Shown: piece by piece, positions 33,681 through 42,026 of the stretch | Numbering within the stretch: position 1 is the stretch's first letter | Layout of the letters: each line of letters starts with the position of its first letter | Assembly (NCBI RefSeq): GCF_006715305.1 | Contig: NZ_VFMY01000001.1 | Span: 1,054,001-1,118,000 of the forward strand | Origin: Arthrobacter sp. SLBN-100 | GTDB lineage: Bacteria > Actinomycetota > Actinomycetes > Actinomycetales > Micrococcaceae | DNA: 64,000 nt | Direction of reading: 5' to 3' | Made by a program: the position numbers and the translations under genes | The notes under the pieces: generated by a model | The model's database searches: none | Seen by the model: the letters and a program-made list of their open reading frames with translations, nothing else | What the model was told of the DNA's origin: nothing

Positions 33681-36600
33681 ATGCCCGCATCCCCCGCCGT
33701 GCGACCACTGACAGCCCTCCAGCGGGTTGTCCTCCCGCTCGTCATTGCACTGGTGGCGGCCCTGCTTCCAGTGGGGTTGCCGGTCCTCCTGACCAGGGCG
33801 GCAGCGGCCGACCCCTGCGCTCCTTTGATCAACGCGGTGGCGTGTGAGAACTCCAAGCCCGGCAGCCCTGCTTCAGAGTGGGACATCGAAAAAGCCGGTG
33901 ATGATTCCATTCAGGGCTTCGCCACGGAGATGAGCACCAACGCCGGGCAGGCTGTGCGCTTCAAGATTGATACCAACGCGGCCAATTACTCCATCCGGAT
34001 CTACCGGACCGGCTGGTACCAGGGCCTGGGTGCCCGCAAAATCGCAGACGTTACCCCGTCGGCCCTGCGCCAGTCACAGCCCCAATGCCTGTCCGATAAC
34101 ACCACCGAGCTGTATGACTGCGGCACCTGGGCGGTCTCGGCCACCTGGCAGGTGCCCGCGGACGCTGTTTCCGGAGTCTACGTCGCGTTGCTCACCCGCC
34201 CGGACACCGGCGGCCAAAGCCACATCACCTTCATAGTCCGCAACGACGGCAGCCGTTCGAATATCGTCTTCCAGACCTCGGATACCACGTGGCAGGCGTA
34301 CAACACGTACGGCGGAGCCGACTTCTACCAGGGCGCTGTTAATGGCCGTGCCTACAAAATCAGCTACAACCGGCCGTTCGCCACACGCGGTGATTCGGAA
34401 GGCAGGGACTTCTACTTCAGCAACGAGTACCCCCTGGTCCGTTTCCTGGAGAAGAACGGCTACGACGTCAGCTACATCAGTGGACTCGATACTGACCGCA
34501 GCGGAGCGCTGCTGCGCAACCACAAAGTCTTCCTGTCTGTGGGCCACGACGAATACTGGTCCGGCGCGCAGCGAACCAACGTTGAAGCTGCCCGCGACGC
34601 CGGAGTGAACCTGCAGTTCCTCTCCGGCAATGAAGTATATTGGCGCACCCGCTACGAGCCGTCTCCGGTGGATGGAGCCGCGCACCGCACCATCACGTCC
34701 TACAAGGAAACCTGGGCCAACGGAAAAATCGACCCGAGCACGGAATGGACCGGCACCTGGCGTGACCCGCGCTATGCAGCACCGGCGAACGGTGGCGGAC
34801 TGCCCGAGAATGCCTTGACCGGGACGATTTACATGTCGAACTACACCGACCTTCCCATCACAGTCAGTGCCGCTGAAGGCAAAACCCGGCTGTGGCGGGG
34901 CACTTCCCTTGCATCCCTCGCAACCGGAGCATCCGCTGCTTTGGCACCGCACACAGTCGGTTACGAATCCGATGAAGACCTGGACAACGGGTTCCGTCCC
35001 GCGGGGCTGATCCGGCTGTCCACCACAACGGGGCCAACAGTTCAGTACCTCCAGGATTTTGGCAACACTGTCCAGCCGGGAACGACCACCCATAACCTGA
35101 CGCTTTACCGTGCGGCCAGTGGAGCGCTCGTGTTCGGTGCCGGCACCGTCCAATGGACGTGGGGCCTTGACCAGGAACACGACGGCGAGGGCGCAGGAGC
35201 GGACCCGCGCATCCAGCAGGCACAAATCAACCTGCTTGCAGATATGGGCGCACAGCCGGGAACAAGGGACCCGGCCCTGGCAGCAGCGGCCGCCAGCACT
35301 GATGTGGCTGGACCGTCAGTCACGGTCAGTTCGCCGGCAGAGGGCGCAGGCATCGCGCACGGCACCAGTGTCACCGCCTCAGGGACCGCGACGGACTCCG
35401 GCGGTGTTGTGTCCGGCGTCGAAGTCTCTACGGACGGCGGCAAATCCTGGCATCCCGCGCAGGGAAAGCAGAACTGGACCTACACCTACATGCAAAAGGG
35501 ACTGACGGCGTCCACCTTCCAGGTCCGCGCAATTGACGACAGCGCCAACATCGGAGCCACCGTCACCCGCAACCTTCAAGTGCCCGGCCCATACACCGTC
35601 TTTGGCCAGCAGGTGCCGCCAGTCCCGGATTCCCAGGACGGGGGCGCCTATGAGCTGGGCCTGAAAATCACCCCCACTGTGGATGGCTTCATCACCGGTG
35701 TCAGGTTCTACAAAAGCAGTGCCAACACCGGAACGCACACGGGTTCACTCTGGAATGCCGCCGGCCAGCGGCTGGCAACGGCGACATTCAGCGCGGAGAC
35801 CACCTCAGGCTGGCAGAAGGTGCTCTTCTCACAGCCAGTTGCCGTAACAGCCGGCACCAAATACACCGTCTCCTACAAGGCGCCCAACGGGCATTACGCC
35901 ATCAAGGACTACCAGTGGGCAAGCTTCGGCTTTTCCGAGCCCCCGCTGACCGTCGCCGGCGGATTCGGGAGTGAGCCGGCAGGTGTGTACGGTTCGGCTG
36001 ATTCGTTCCCCACCAACAGCTACGGCAACGGCAACTACTTCGTGGATGCCGTGTTTGACACCGTCGATAACACGCCGCTGACAGCAGGCGGGCAATGGCC
36101 GCTGGACGGCTCCTCGAGCGTCCCCCAAGCCACTACAGTGGGTGCGGTCTTCTCAAAGCCTGTGACGGCCTCGACTGTCAGCCTCACCCTCAAAGCCGCC
36201 GACGGAACAACTGTTGCCGGCACCACAGCCTATGATTCCGTGGTCCGCAAAGCCACCTTCACGCCCAGTGCCCCGCTGGCTTTGGCCACGAAGTTCACGG
36301 TCGCGCTCAGCGCCACGGCATCGAGCGGAGGGTCCCTGACAGCAGGGGGGACCTGGTCCTTCACCACCGTCGTTTCCCCACCACTGCCCGGAACCTGCCC
36401 CTGCAGTTTCTATGACGATGCGGCAACTCCCGGCATCCAGGAGATCCGCGACGGCGTCCCGCTGACGCTCGGCCTAAGGTTCTCCAGCACTGCCGGCGGG
36501 ACAGTTACCGGTGTCAGGTTCTACAAGTCAGCCGGCAACACCGGAACCCACACGGGCTCCCTCTTCAGCGCAGCCGGCGAGCAACTCGCCACCGTTACCT

Positions 36601-39224
36601 TCGCCAATGAAAGCACTTCGGGCTGGCAGACGGCGTACTTCAACCAGCCGGTGGCGATGAGTGCGAACACCGAGTACGTTGTGGCATACAAGTCGACAAC
36701 GGGCGCGTACTCCGCAACAGTGAACGGGTTCGGTTCCGGCCTGAGCGTTGGCAACCTGCGGGCGGCGTCCGATGCGGGAGCCTACTCCTACTCCACCGAC
36801 TTCCCCGGGTCCCGGTCGTCCGCCAGCTACCTCGTTGACGTGGTTGTGCAATACCCCGACCCGCCCTTCACGGGGGTTAACCAGTCGCCGCTGGCCGGCT
36901 CGTCCAGTGTCGCACTGGACAGCCCGGTGTCCGTGGTCCTGTCCAAACCCGCCACCGCATCAACGGTCAAACTCACCCTCACCGGCCCCGGCACTACACC
37001 CGTGAACGGCACCTCCGCCTACGACACGGCCACAGGCAAGGCCACCTTCACACCCGCCGCCGCCCTGGCCACCTCCACCACCTACACGGCAACCCTGAGC
37101 GCAACCTCCACCACAGGACAGCAACTCAGCGCAGGCAACACCTGGACCTTCACCACAGTGCCCGCACCACGCACCGAAGGAACCTGCCCCTGCACCCTCT
37201 ACCAGGACACCGTCACCCCCACCACCATGGAAATCAAAGACGGCACCCCACTCACCCTCGGCGTCCGCTTCGCCAGCGCCGCCGACGGCACCATCACCGG
37301 CCTCCGCTTCTACAAAGCAGCCGGCAACACCGGAACCCACACCGGTACCCTCTTCACCGCCGGCGGCCAACAACTGGCCACCATCACCTTCACCAACGAA
37401 ACCACCGCCGGCTGGCAGACAATGAACTTCAGCCAACCCGTCCCCATCACCGCCAACACCGAATACATCGCCGCCTACACCACCCCCACCGGCACCTACT
37501 CATCAACACCAGGCGGCTTCAACACCGGCTTCACCAGCGGACCACTACGCACCACAGAAGGATCCGGCGCCTTCACCTATTCGGGTGCCTTCCCGGGCTC
37601 ATCATCGAGTTCCAGCTATCTCGTGGACCTTGTGTTCCAGCAGGCTGATCCGCCCTTCGCGGGGGTTAACCAGTCGCCGCTGGCCGGCTCGTCCAGTGTC
37701 GCACTGGACAGCCCGGTGTCCGTGGTCCTGTCCAAACCCGCCACCGCATCAACGGTCAAACTCACCCTCACCGGCCCCGGCACTACACCCGTGAACGGCA
37801 CCTCCGCCTACGACACGGCCACAGGCAAGGCCACCTTCACACCCGCCGCCGCCCTGGCCACCTCCACCACCTACACGGCAACCCTGAGCGCAACCTCCAC
37901 CACAGGACAGCAACTCAGCGCAGGCAACACCTGGACCTTCACCACAGTGCCCGCACCACGCACCGAAGGAACCTGCCCCTGCACCCTCTACCAGGACACC
38001 GTCACCCCCACCACCATGGAAATCAAAGACGGCACCCCACTCACCCTCGGCGTCCGCTTCGCCAGCGCCGCCGACGGCACCATCACCGGCCTCCGCTTCT
38101 ACAAAGCAGCCGGCAACACCGGAACCCACACCGGTACCCTCTTCACCGCCGGCGGCCAACAACTGGCCACCATCACCTTCACCAACGAAACCACCGCCGG
38201 CTGGCAGACAATGAACTTCAGCCAACCCGTCCCCATCACCGCCAACACCGAATACATCGCCGCCTACACCACCCCCACCGGCACCTACTCAGCAACACCA
38301 GGCGGCTTCAACACCGGCTTCACCAGCGGACCACTACGCACCACAGAAGGATCCGGCGCCTTCGCTAATGGCTCTGTTTTCCCGGTCAACGGCTCCACTA
38401 CCAGCTACTTTGTGGACGTCGTCTACGGGGGGACGTCCCCGTCCTCAGCATCATTTACCGTGACAGCCCAGTCGCCAGTCCAGAATGCGACCAATGTACC
38501 GCGGGATGTGAAACCCACATTGACGCTCTCCTCAAGCGCAAAGCCCGGAGCAGCCCTGGAACTGGTGGTGGCCGGGGCCACCATTTCCGGAGCGTCAGCA
38601 CTCTCGACCGATGGCAGGACTATCACCTTTACACCCAGCGATCTGCTCCCAGCCAACACACAAGTAACGGCTCGGGCCGTCAATGTCAGTTCCACCGATG
38701 GGGCAGCCTTGCCAGCCACGAGTTGGTTGTTCACCACAACGAACCCTCCTGACCAGACTCTTTTCGCTACCCTCACTCCAACAGTTGCCGCCTCCAGCGA
38801 AACCAGGGCCATCGAGCTGGGCGCAACGTTCAGGACCTCACGGACCGGTTGGGTTACCGGAATCCGTTTTTACAAGGGTCCGCTCAACACCGGCATCCAC
38901 TACGGTTCGCTTTGGAACTCCGCCGGTAGCCGCCTGGCCCGGGTTGCCTTTAGCAACGAGACTGCCACCGGCTGGCAGACGGCAGTCCTATCGCCTCCCG
39001 TCCGCCTGACTGAAGCGACAGATTACGTGGTTTCGTACAACGCTCCGGTGGGCCGATATTCCTTCACTTCTGCGTTCTTCACGCGGGCGTGGACAAGCGG
39101 CTATCTCACAGCTCCGGCGGCCAGGAACGGGCTGTTCCGTTACGGTTCCGGAACCGCGGTTCCCAACCGTACCGACAATGCCACCAACTACTTCGTGGAT
39201 GTTGTCTTCTCGCCCGCTTCATAA
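33681..39224 (+). CDS. Large secreted modular protein: DMFase-like domain, Ig-like domains and five DUF4082 modules
   Basis: An 1847-residue exported protein. ATG 33681 follows AGGAG by five bases; the open frame back to 33477 is not needed. Residues ~1-45 are a signal peptide ending in RAAAADPC. Residues ~50-545 match the N,N-dimethylformamidase large-subunit-like domain (GWYQGLGARKI, GDSEGRDFYFSNEYPLVRFL, LSVGHDEYWSG). Then an Ig-like domain (~540-635) and five ~155-residue DUF4082 units (starting ~636, 904, 1167, 1430, 1692; core VRFYKxxxNTGTHTGSL), separated by four SbsA/Big_5-type Ig-like domains. No LPXTG, membrane anchor or SLH motif follows, so attachment is unclear. Probably a surface or polysaccharide-associated protein; catalytic activity is unproven. 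It carries a recent internal duplication. Confidence 0.88.
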   Translation: MPASPAVRPLTALQRVVLPLVIALVAALLPVGLPVLLTRAAAADPCAPLINAVACENSKPGSPASEWDIEKAGDDSIQGFATEMSTNAGQAVRFKIDTNAANYSIRIYRTGWYQGLGARKIADVTPSALRQSQPQCLSDNTTELYDCGTWAVSATWQVPADAVSGVYVALLTRPDTGGQSHITFIVRNDGSRSNIVFQTSDTTWQAYNTYGGADFYQGAVNGRAYKISYNRPFATRGDSEGRDFYFSNEYPLVRFLEKNGYDVSYISGLDTDRSGALLRNHKVFLSVGHDEYWSGAQRTNVEAARDAGVNLQFLSGNEVYWRTRYEPSPVDGAAHRTITSYKETWANGKIDPSTEWTGTWRDPRYAAPANGGGLPENALTGTIYMSNYTDLPITVSAAEGKTRLWRGTSLASLATGASAALAPHTVGYESDEDLDNGFRPAGLIRLSTTTGPTVQYLQDFGNTVQPGTTTHNLTLYRAASGALVFGAGTVQWTWGLDQEHDGEGAGADPRIQQAQINLLADMGAQPGTRDPALAAAAASTDVAGPSVTVSSPAEGAGIAHGTSVTASGTATDSGGVVSGVEVSTDGGKSWHPAQGKQNWTYTYMQKGLTASTFQVRAIDDSANIGATVTRNLQVPGPYTVFGQQVPPVPDSQDGGAYELGLKITPTVDGFITGVRFYKSSANTGTHTGSLWNAAGQRLATATFSAETTSGWQKVLFSQPVAVTAGTKYTVSYKAPNGHYAIKDYQWASFGFSEPPLTVAGGFGSEPAGVYGSADSFPTNSYGNGNYFVDAVFDTVDNTPLTAGGQWPLDGSSSVPQATTVGAVFSKPVTASTVSLTLKAADGTTVAGTTAYDSVVRKATFTPSAPLALATKFTVALSATASSGGSLTAGGTWSFTTVVSPPLPGTCPCSFYDDAATPGIQEIRDGVPLTLGLRFSSTAGGTVTGVRFYKSAGNTGTHTGSLFSAAGEQLATVTFANESTSGWQTAYFNQPVAMSANTEYVVAYKSTTGAYSATVNGFGSGLSVGNLRAASDAGAYSYSTDFPGSRSSASYLVDVVVQYPDPPFTGVNQSPLAGSSSVALDSPVSVVLSKPATASTVKLTLTGPGTTPVNGTSAYDTATGKATFTPAAALATSTTYTATLSATSTTGQQLSAGNTWTFTTVPAPRTEGTCPCTLYQDTVTPTTMEIKDGTPLTLGVRFASAADGTITGLRFYKAAGNTGTHTGTLFTAGGQQLATITFTNETTAGWQTMNFSQPVPITANTEYIAAYTTPTGTYSSTPGGFNTGFTSGPLRTTEGSGAFTYSGAFPGSSSSSSYLVDLVFQQADPPFAGVNQSPLAGSSSVALDSPVSVVLSKPATASTVKLTLTGPGTTPVNGTSAYDTATGKATFTPAAALATSTTYTATLSATSTTGQQLSAGNTWTFTTVPAPRTEGTCPCTLYQDTVTPTTMEIKDGTPLTLGVRFASAADGTITGLRFYKAAGNTGTHTGTLFTAGGQQLATITFTNETTAGWQTMNFSQPVPITANTEYIAAYTTPTGTYSATPGGFNTGFTSGPLRTTEGSGAFANGSVFPVNGSTTSYFVDVVYGGTSPSSASFTVTAQSPVQNATNVPRDVKPTLTLSSSAKPGAALELVVAGATISGASALSTDGRTITFTPSDLLPANTQVTARAVNVSSTDGAALPATSWLFTTTNPPDQTLFATLTPTVAASSETRAIELGATFRTSRTGWVTGIRFYKGPLNTGIHYGSLWNSAGSRLARVAFSNETATGWQTAVLSPPVRLTEATDYVVSYNAPVGRYSFTSAFFTRAWTSGYLTAPAARNGLFRYGSGTAVPNRTDNATNYFVDVVFSPAS
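36861..37574 (+). repeat. Internal duplication, copy 1
   Basis: 714 bases that recur 789 bases downstream with two substitutions that I can see (36870 A/G and 37503 T/G). It encodes one Ig-like plus most of one DUF4082 unit. Confidence 0.95.
37650..38363 (+). repeat. Internal duplication, copy 2
   Basis: Second copy of the 714-base segment, in frame with the first. The 75 bases between the copies are different from the sequence after copy 2, so the exchange boundary is sharp. Confidence 0.95.
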
Positions 39225-39669: not shown

Positions 39670-40710
39670 TTATCGCACCACGGATGGTGACCACGCGTGT
39701 TCGATATACAGCCGCGGGCCAGCTCCGCCATCAGCAGGAATTCGCCAGACATCCGAGTCCCCTGCTTCGCCCTCCCTCGGCAATCCGTAGAGGAGAAAGC
39801 TGTCATTAAGCCATTCGATCTGGTCATCAATGCTTCGGCTTTCGCCAAGGACTGTCTCCTTGCCACTCGCCAGATCAAGGACTGCTGCCTTCCAGTAAGG
39901 GGTGATGCCTGAGCCCATGCCTTTCTTAAAGGCGACGCGGGTCCCGTCAGGCGATATGGAGGGGCATTCCACCCCATCGTGGACTGCAGTCAAGGTGCGA
40001 CCGGCAATGCTGCCGCGAACCAGCCAATGGCGCCCGGAAGCTGCTGCTGTGGCGAAGAAGGCGTCAGGCTGACCGGGGACAAAAGTGACGCCCCAGATGT
40101 TTCTTTCTGAGCCCGTAATCTGCTGGCCATTTACCAGCAATGCAAATTCCTCCAGATTCCCGGCCTTGACAGCGCCATCCAGGCCCCTGATGGCCGTTTC
40201 AGTGGAAAATCCCGTCCCCGCGTAGGAGTGGCCGGTGACAAAAACAGTAGTAGCGACCAGGCCGGCGCCGCTGGCACGGGTCCTGCTGGGGATCCCCGGA
40301 AGGGCCCAGGCCTGAAGCCTCTGCCAACCGGCTCCGTAAATCGAGGCTTCGAAGCTCGTCACCAAGCCCCGGTTGGTGCTGAGGCAGACCACGTTTATCC
40401 CGGTCGCGTACACCCTGTCGCATGCTGCGCCGCCAATGCTCCTGGGGCCTGAGGGGTCTGCAGCGGGAACGGTTGCTGCCATGCCGTAACCCTGCCCCGC
40501 TGCGGTATTGCGGAAAAGGACGTAGGAACCTTTCGGCAATTCCGTGCTTTCTGCAGCAACGTCGACGGCGGGCGGCGCGGCGCGGCTGTCCTGCAGGCGT
40601 TGGAAGGCGGACAGGGCGTAAGAGCCCGCTCCCGCCAGGATGAGGCACGTCACCATCAAAAGAACCACCCAGCGGAGCCGGCCGCCGGAACTCTTGGTGC
40701 CTTCGGTCAT
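39670..40710 (-). CDS. Membrane-anchored TolB/WD40-like beta-propeller protein
   Basis: A 346-residue protein. I chose ATG 40710 because it overlaps the MFS stop (ATGA) and gives a short basic N-terminus followed by a membrane helix (WVVLLMVTCLILAGAGSYAL, residues ~14-33). The rest is predicted to be extracytoplasmic and beta-rich. TolB-type repeats such as PSISPDGTRVAFKKGMG and VWRIPADGGAGPRLYIEHA are visible, so a partial propeller is likely. It is the last gene of a three-gene operon with an MFS transporter. Function unknown; the open frame further upstream (to 41163) is out-of-frame MFS coding sequence. Confidence 0.78.
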   Translation of the reverse strand: MTEGTKSSGGRLRWVVLLMVTCLILAGAGSYALSAFQRLQDSRAAPPAVDVAAESTELPKGSYVLFRNTAAGQGYGMAATVPAADPSGPRSIGGAACDRVYATGINVVCLSTNRGLVTSFEASIYGAGWQRLQAWALPGIPSRTRASGAGLVATTVFVTGHSYAGTGFSTETAIRGLDGAVKAGNLEEFALLVNGQQITGSERNIWGVTFVPGQPDAFFATAAASGRHWLVRGSIAGRTLTAVHDGVECPSISPDGTRVAFKKGMGSGITPYWKAAVLDLASGKETVLGESRSIDDQIEWLNDSFLLYGLPREGEAGDSDVWRIPADGGAGPRLYIEHAWSPSVVR

Positions 40711-42026
40711 ACCACCGCTTCCTGCCGTTGTGCTTTCCGCAAGATGAAGTACGAGGCCGGGAGGACAACCGCCAGGAGACTCCCCACCACCACCATGGCT
40801 GCTGCCGGCCCGAGGGCAAACCAGCAAACTCCGAAGAGGGTGGATGCCGCTACCCGGCTGAGCGCCACCACGGTCTGCACCGTGCCAATGCCTGTGGCCA
40901 GCATGCCTGGTGGGCTCAGCTGGCTTGCAAAGGCTGCCAGGACACCATCGGTTGCAGCATAGAAGGCTCCCAGCAGGGCAAGGCAGAGCATTGTCGGCCC
41001 AAGGCCGCTCACTGGTGCCGCTGCGCAGAGGTAGCACGCCAGGAGTGCCACATGGCCGGCCAGGAAAACCCTTCCCTTGCCGTAGCGGTCGGCAAGCCTG
41101 CCCATGGGGATGGCCAGCAGCAGGAAAACGATATTGGTGCCAACGTACAGCAGGGGAAACCATTGCACCGCAAAGTCATCCCTGTCCTGCAGGACGAGGT
41201 AGATGAATCCGTCGCCGACGGTGAGCAGGCCAAGCAACGCTGATGCGATCAGCAACCGGCCCAGCCCGGGTTCCCTGAACAACTGCCAACGCAGTGGAAG
41301 GCGGGCACCCCGCCCCGGGGCTGCCTGGCTGCCGCCGGTTCGTTTCACGCCGGGCCGGCGCGCCTTCCGTCCCGTCCCCAGGTCCGGCACTACCAGGGCC
41401 AGTGCTGCCACGCCGATCGCTGCAAACGCGAGGGACACCACGAAGACGGTGCCGTATCCGTTGGGTATCAGCATCAGGATCAGAAAAGCGATGAGGGGTC
41501 CTGCTGCCGCTCCAATGTTGTCCAGCATCCTGTGCACGCCGAAATGCCGGGCCAGGTACTCCGGCTGCGCCGCCGTCGAGATCAGCGCATCACGTGGAGC
41601 GGTCCTGATGCCCTTGCCGATCCGGTCACCGGTGACGGCCGCCGCCATCGACCAGAATCCGCCGGCGAAGAGGAATCCGACACGGGCGATCAGCGACAAG
41701 CCGTACCCGGCCAGGGCTACTCGCTTGGGCCTGCCAACTCTGTCCGAGGCCCAACCGGCCGCGATCCGTACCAGGGCACTAGCACCTTGGTTTATTCCGT
41801 CGATGATTCCGAAGGCGATCACGGAAAGCCCCAGGAAGCCGGTGATGTAAAGCGGCAGGACGGCGGCAACTGACTCCGACGAGATGTCCGTAGCCATGCT
41901 CACTATGCCCAGCCAGAGGATAACGGGCGAAAGCCTGAAGCGCGCAGCCGGGAGATCTGCCCCCTCCATGGCTGGTTCCAGCGCTTTTTCCTTGCCGCCA
42001 TGGCGGTCCGACATGGATATGTACAT
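40707..42026 (-). CDS. MFS transporter in a three-gene membrane operon
   Basis: A 439-residue permease with 12 predicted helices. It has the helix 2-3 motif AAGWASDRVGRPKRVALAGYGLS and an equivalent GRLADRYGKGRVFLAGHVAL in the second half. The conserved GIRTAPRDALIS segment in helix 4-5 is typical of this MFS subgroup, often annotated as related to Bcr/CflA or YajR-like carriers. A long Arg/Gly-rich central loop (GRKARRPGVKRTGG) links the halves. It starts three bases after the upstream gene and overlaps the downstream TolB-like gene by 4 bp. Substrate unknown. Confidence 0.85.
   Translation of the reverse strand: MYISMSDRHGGKEKALEPAMEGADLPAARFRLSPVILWLGIVSMATDISSESVAAVLPLYITGFLGLSVIAFGIIDGINQGASALVRIAAGWASDRVGRPKRVALAGYGLSLIARVGFLFAGGFWSMAAAVTGDRIGKGIRTAPRDALISTAAQPEYLARHFGVHRMLDNIGAAAGPLIAFLILMLIPNGYGTVFVVSLAFAAIGVAALALVVPDLGTGRKARRPGVKRTGGSQAAPGRGARLPLRWQLFREPGLGRLLIASALLGLLTVGDGFIYLVLQDRDDFAVQWFPLLYVGTNIVFLLLAIPMGRLADRYGKGRVFLAGHVALLACYLCAAAPVSGLGPTMLCLALLGAFYAATDGVLAAFASQLSPPGMLATGIGTVQTVVALSRVAASTLFGVCWFALGPAAAMVVVGSLLAVVLPASYFILRKAQRQEAVV

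Follow-up and report, generated by a model that had tools for sequence, protein, structure and literature searches.

We analysed a 64,000-nucleotide stretch of DNA from Arthrobacter sp. SLBN-100, here called the window. A single frame on its forward strand (33681-39224) encodes, by translation, 1,847 amino acids followed by a stop, with no internal stop codon. This gene, to which we refer as the giant, starts at an ATG (33681) with a good ribosome-binding site, AGGAG, five bases upstream; an alternative, longer in-frame start lies at a TTG (33477; 1,915 amino acids). Hydrophobic residues 17 to 36 followed by AAAAD were judged by eye on the translation to form a signal peptide, and the protein is probably secreted. 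Pfam assigns residues 105 to 500 to DMFA2_C (PF20254; E 3e-103; 346.5 bits against a curated cut-off of 27), and in profile alignment this head has an Ig-like part starting at about residue 68. It is followed by a Big_7 domain (E 5e-8), four Big_5 stretches (E 7e-37), and five DUF4082 matches (PF13313) of 146 to 169 bits each against a curated cut-off of 28.4 (E 2e-215 for the whole protein). The first Big_5 domain separates modules 1 and 2, and domains 2 to 4 are taken to lie between modules 2 and 3, 3 and 4, and 4 and 5. Pfam thus bears out the domain reading of an earlier note on this DNA (a signal peptide, a dimethylformamidase-like head, an Ig-like domain, and five DUF4082 modules with four Ig-like domains), in which the signal peptide stays probable. 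That note had also seen no cell-wall anchor motif, and we likewise found no LPxTG-type motif in the giant. The giant is present in a single copy; no other DUF4082 or DMFA2_C gene was found in the SLBN-100 genome. The features discussed below are as follows.

33681..39224, + strand: giant, probably secreted, 1,847 amino acids (translation, Pfam)
33681..33809, + strand: probable signal peptide, about residues 1-43 (by eye)
33993..35180, + strand: DMFA2_C head, residues 105-500 (Pfam, profile search)
34299..34301, + strand: Tyr207, at iron ligand Y399 of Paracoccus dimethylformamidase (DMFase) (weak alignment piece)
34326..34328, + strand: Tyr216, at iron ligand Y440 of DMFase (profile alignment)
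34545..34553, + strand: His289, at catalytic H519, and Glu291, at iron ligand E521, of DMFase (profile alignment)
34629..34631, + strand: Asn317, at N547 of DMFase (profile alignment)
35313..35528, + strand: Big_7 Ig-like domain, residues 545-616 (Pfam)
35610..36044, + strand: DUF4082 module 1 (Pfam match)
36066..36368, + strand: Big_5 domain 1, residues 796-896 (Pfam)
36423..36833, + strand: DUF4082 module 2 (Pfam match)
36871..37574, + strand: near-exact repeat, copy 1 (offset 789 to copy 2)
37212..37625, + strand: DUF4082 module 3 (Pfam match)
37660..38363, + strand: near-exact repeat, copy 2 (offset 789 from copy 1)
38001..38414, + strand: DUF4082 module 4, a recent duplicate of the module 3 unit (Pfam match, repeat comparison)
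38772..39197, + strand: DUF4082 module 5, C-terminal (Pfam match)
39670..40710, - strand: TolB-like β-propeller protein that travels with the giant, also on plasmids (neighbourhood comparison)
40707..42026, - strand: MFS-type transporter, conserved beside the giant/TolB-like pair (one weak match and inspection of the sequence)

One 789-bp unit underlies both module 3 and module 4, its copies being identical over 632 and then 71 bases with one mismatch between, and the pair is a tandem duplication of recent date. Orthologues that occupy this slot of the chromosome (19 loci, L037-L055) carry four modules apiece. Arthrobacter sp. OV608 (L077), whose head is 96% identical to that of the window, likewise carries five modules; its exact repeat spans 701 bases, again at an offset of 789.

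Scanning one genome per species for sequence patterns confirmed at least 589 matching stretches, a count of stretches rather than of distinct loci. The best 80 loci come mostly from Actinobacteria, with others from Acidobacteria, Chloroflexi, one cyanobacterium, and several Proteobacteria. In all of these 80 best relatives, the main head gene carries one to five DUF4082 modules, some clipped at contig ends; the combination of PF20254 with PF13313 is common rather than unusual, and what sets the window giant apart from the other DUF4082 proteins is its set of five modules, following a recent duplication, and its position between smc and rnc. DUF4082 occurred in 7 of 198 genomes sampled across the phylum, one of the seven below the cut-off, and the family is therefore patchy. 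Stand-alone DMFA2_C heads of about 540 amino acids, without DUF4082 and away from the sugar operon described below, retain the five catalytic residues (L070-L073).

The head carries a site of the DMFase type. We searched the PDB with profiles of two alignments: A1, comprising 22 of 35 head coordinates, the window head, and the four stand-alone heads (27 heads), found an N-acetyl-(R)-β-phenylalanine acylase and DMFase, and A3, comprising 61 of 82 heads and the window head (62 heads), matched the acylase best (8i5a, E 1.9e-14), with DMFase (6lvb) at E 9.4e-8. Y216, H289, E291, and N317 align with DMFase Y440, H519, E521, and N547 in one significant piece; the piece that places Y207 on Y399 is separate and weak (0.8 bits for DMFase, 16.7 bits for the acylase), and 8i5a has a similar QAY motif at this place. 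All five residues are invariant in 27 of 27 A1 heads, even though the four stand-alone heads are only 26 to 28% identical to the window head. They are also invariant in 62 of 62 A3 heads, where the constancy of H289/E291 or Y207 is partly built in because the patterns that fetched the 80 loci included these residues (around GHDEYW or DxTWQAYN); A1 is free of this bias. DMFase Y399, Y440, and E521 are reported to bind Fe(III), its Y440A, E521A, and H519A mutants are reported to be inactive, and N547 is placed in the active site together with H519 (PMC7686228). The earlier note had considered the activity of the head unknown; its kinship reading stands, and the conserved DMFase-type site suggests that the head is probably an amidase. 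The conserved metal residues point to iron as its probable metal.

The giant shares with the Paracoccus DMFase large subunit (6lvb) the Ig-like domain I, the catalytic domain III, and the five residue positions but differs from it in its probable secretion, its long modular tail, and, by profile alignment, the lack of pentraxin domain II. The head alignment skips about 290 residues of the acylase and about 300 of DMFase, at the site of the DMFase pentraxin domain: profile positions 63-64 and 104-108 meet 44 and 336 of 8i5a and 31 and 337 of DMFase, so that a pentraxin-like domain II, sought in the head by profile alignment, has no room there. The head thus appears to be a compact form consisting of an Ig part and a catalytic part. 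The DMFase catalytic domain has been described as a novel fold whose evolutionary origin was unknown, with a domain III core that resembles the ThuA-like group of glutamine amidotransferases (PMC7686228). The acylase (8i5a, 8huy, 8i59), the head's best PDB profile match, cleaves an N-acetyl amide according to its depositors' name; it differs from the head in the additional region of about 290 residues and in its substrate, a small amino acid derivative. The acetamiprid amidase AceAB belongs to the DMFase family by sequence and is reported not to act on DMF, so substrates would vary within this family, as far as that account goes (PMC11573777); compared with the giant, AceAB has two subunits and a small substrate. 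Literature searches returned nothing for DMFase with exopolysaccharide, one review for DMFase with polysaccharide (PMC11573777), no fitting title for β-phenylalanine acylase, and none for a dimethylformamidase beta subunit.

Structure prediction of a single DUF4082 unit, a check named in the earlier note, gave a confident all-beta fold for module 2 (36387-36866; mean pLDDT 96, pTM 0.91). The closest solved fold is that of the PHR domains of MYCBP2 and BTBD2, with 3gbw at rank 1 (E 2.8e-5), a TM of about 0.6 (0.58 to 0.62) with 3gbw and 3no8 at an rmsd of 5 to 6 Å, a TM of 0.45 to 0.49 with 3hwj, and 13 to 15% sequence identity. Capsid and fibre proteins of viruses stand alongside PHR, and CBM35 (TM 0.38 to 0.45, E 4e-3 to 1e-2) and other carbohydrate-binding modules stand lower in the list. 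By sequence, PHR (PF08005) matches the whole giant at E 4e-8, with no individual stretch passing. Alignment A2 holds 74 modules (69 of 95 listed modules and the five of the window; 287 had been found, 170 after removal of near-copies); weak PHR matches occur in three of them (E up to 0.01, best 1.5e-3), and Lectin_like and CBM_4_9 each give one weak match. PHR domains are found in eukaryotic intracellular proteins, where they bind proteins; a literature search for a bacterial PHR domain returned none. On the predicted fold, DUF4082 is likely a binding module, for either glycan or protein. Pfam lists the domain as of unknown function, and among the open-access papers searched its name turned up in one, as a table entry. 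We set aside CxC motifs ahead of the modules as a possible general feature; they occur in at least four of the 74 modules, in alignment rows cut at the domain edge.

Within the genus, the slot reads smc, giant, TolB-like propeller, MFS-type transporter, one further gene, mutM, and rnc, where smc, mutM, and rnc were named from sequence rather than by family scan. The giant, the TolB-like gene, and the transporter occur together in 18 of 19 slot loci; in the remaining one (L044), the giant is inverted, and the TolB-like gene and the transporter were not found. The TolB-like protein is a probable partner of the giant. It has an N-terminal hydrophobic stretch (by eye) and also occurs in some exopolysaccharide loci. 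Nine Arthrobacter/Paenarthrobacter plasmids are among the listed giant matches, and eight of the nine are also among the listed TolB-like matches; on the two plasmids inspected, Rue61a p232 and pTC2, the giant adjoins the TolB-like gene. We considered and dropped the giant as a member of a DNA-repair/SMC neighbourhood, because 57 of 101 same-genus genomes lack it (ftsY is present in 101 of 101) and copies elsewhere have other neighbours.

Second-type giants, with heads 55 to 60% identical, lie in Arthrobacter exopolysaccharide loci; a WecG/GT2 glycosyltransferase was found in 7 of 13 such loci, and Wzy, a weak Wzz match, and glycoside-hydrolase-like proteins were each found in single scanned loci. 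Weak GH30C/Glyco_hydro_cc matches stand directly beside second-type giants at L063, L066, and L067.

In other genera, the giant frequently heads an operon in the order giant, Gfo/Idh, epimerase, DegT, PglD/NeuD acyltransferase, DegT, and Wzx. With markers named by a Pfam scan of a single representative from each cluster, the best 80 loci contain DegT in 38, Gfo/Idh in 36 (directly next to the giant on the same strand in 22), and epimerase in 27; some exopolysaccharide marker lies near the giant in 57 of 80, the smc slot accounts for 6, and 17 have neither. When the SLBN-100 operon proteins served as queries, 40 of these 80 loci had at least two of Gfo, epimerase, and DegT, and 33 had these three together with NeuD. 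The same search for seven operon proteins found none in the four stand-alone head loci (74 kb), none in 96 ftsY-smc loci (481 kb in total; the 80 loci span 1619 kb), and none in the 19 smc-slot loci; operon genes occur in 1 of 13 second-type loci, within the examined stretch. On Rhizobium leguminosarum pRlvE, Gfo/Idh, two DegT, an epimerase, two acyltransferases, and a translocase lie beside two DUF4082 giants, and the operon is absent beside the giant on another Rhizobium plasmid and beside the plasmid copies on Rue61a p232 and pTC2. Each of the two pRlvE giants, which stand in a row (L267, 10960-25497), is followed by a gene annotated as a GTP-binding protein, and a peptidase-domain ABC transporter comes after them.

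The SLBN-100 genome encodes this operon 1.8 Mb from the giant, in the order priming transferase, Gfo/Idh, epimerase, DegT, NeuD, DegT, Wzx, and glycosyltransferase. Of its proteins, NeuD and the priming sugar transferase score above the curated cut-offs of NCBIfam, and the other scanned proteins fall below cut-off in sugar and flippase families. Gfo, epimerase, DegT, and NeuD lie side by side in all ten other genomes checked, four of them without the giant. As a background for DegT, 47 matches below 1e-60 are listed in 41 same-genus genomes (counted by eye). By these family assignments, the operon is a predicted N-acylated amino-sugar pathway together with its export, including a NeuD-type sugar acyltransferase.

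Among 101 same-genus genomes, the giant (either type, E up to 1e-100) is present in 44 and the epimerase in 47: both occur in 43, the giant alone in 1 (an 82% complete genome), the epimerase alone in 4, and neither in 53 (Fisher p 1.1e-22). We mapped these patterns onto an FtsY+SMC tree of 97 genomes, from which 4 of the 101, with partial ftsY, were left out and to which G002, G083, G030, and G061 contribute a short smc part. On this tree, the minimum number of changes is 23 for the giant and 24 for the epimerase; in 19 independent pairs, the epimerase changes in the same direction as the giant in 16.7 on average and in the opposite direction in none (p ~1.5e-5). The second DegT agrees with the giant in 16.8 of 19 pairs, and NeuD, which 25 of the 57 genomes lacking the giant also carry, goes with it in 9.3 pairs and against it in none. 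A urease control agreed in 1.4 pairs and opposed in 1.0, with little power given its 5 changes on the tree. This co-inheritance indicates that the giant follows the sugar pathway even though the two are unlinked in the SLBN-100 lineage, and a functional link of the giant to the N-acylated amino-sugar polysaccharide pathway is very probable.

Co-inheritance with genes for an acylated amino sugar suggests that the giant probably trims or binds that outer polysaccharide. We tentatively favour a specific account that could well be right: the head would be a secreted, probably iron-dependent amidase that works outside the cell and removes an N-acyl group (N-acetyl or N-formyl) from an amino sugar of the cell's own exopolysaccharide, and the Ig and DUF4082 modules would form a long arm tethering the enzyme to the polysaccharide or within the matrix. 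In this account we infer secretion, iron, hydrolysis, the substrate, and polysaccharide binding by the modules. Gene context and co-occurrence back the earlier guess of a polysaccharide role; polysaccharide binding by DUF4082 itself stays a conjecture, since the predicted module fold is nearest to PHR domains and carbohydrate-binding modules rank lower. Several points count against the account as a whole: the alignment piece that sets Y207 on Y399 is weak; the DMFase large subunit is reported to be inactive alone, with the small subunit lining the substrate entrance (PMC7686228); 17 of the best 80 loci have neither exopolysaccharide markers nor the smc slot, the operon occurs without the giant in four genomes, and giant copies occur without the operon; and the predicted module fold is nearest to PHR, not to a lectin.

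The last of these points would suit a non-catalytic matrix protein or adhesin, a rather unlikely reading in which the head has turned to polysaccharide binding and the modules add length or contacts, as the tandem Ig/DUF4082 repeats, the one to five modules in the best 80 relatives, and the recent duplication might also suggest; yet five catalytic positions that do not vary among 27 heads, some only 26% identical to that of the window, go beyond the needs of binding. The head might instead work on the polysaccharide by other chemistry, such as transfer of an acyl group or attachment of the chain to the envelope or to a carrier. The operon link fits such an enzyme too, and the ThuA-like resemblance of the DMFase domain III core makes other chemistries conceivable (PMC7686228), but the named relatives, DMFase, the acylase (by its depositors' name), and AceAB (PMC11573777), are described as amide hydrolases, and we consider a transferase unlikely. 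Hydrolysis of small environmental amides, as by DMFase itself, is what the characterised relatives perform, and extra giant copies on plasmids of soil isolates, two with metal-resistance genes nearby, would suit a scavenger; the length of the modular arm (about 1,300 residues), the joint inheritance with a sugar operon, and the absence from the head of the region inserted in the small-amide enzymes make this very improbable.

Under extracellular N-deacylation of the cell's own polysaccharide, a wider picture can be sketched, which we hold to be doubtful: the giants would be cross-phylum extracellular iron N-deacylases, the pollutant-degrading dimethylformamidases would be offshoots of the superfamily, and DUF4082 would be a PHR-like polysaccharide docker. 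The DMFase-type site of the head, the operon link, the co-inheritance, and the PHR-like module fold are new, and the operon link offers the DMFA2_C head and DUF4082 families a role, and a class of substrate, that can be put to the test. Enzymes acting on N-acylation set the charge and stickiness of polysaccharides and thereby influence biofilm and soil-particle behaviour.

Second giant copies lie on plasmids of soil Arthrobacter/Paenarthrobacter (L056, L074, L268, L270), and on Rue61a p232 and pTC2 metal-resistance genes are close to the giant. Sequencing errors have probably broken the giant and the genes around it into several frames in one 79% complete genome (G053, L075). A cyanobacterial protein beside a giant (L136, 4949-9511) joins WD40 repeats to Big_5 and DUF4082.
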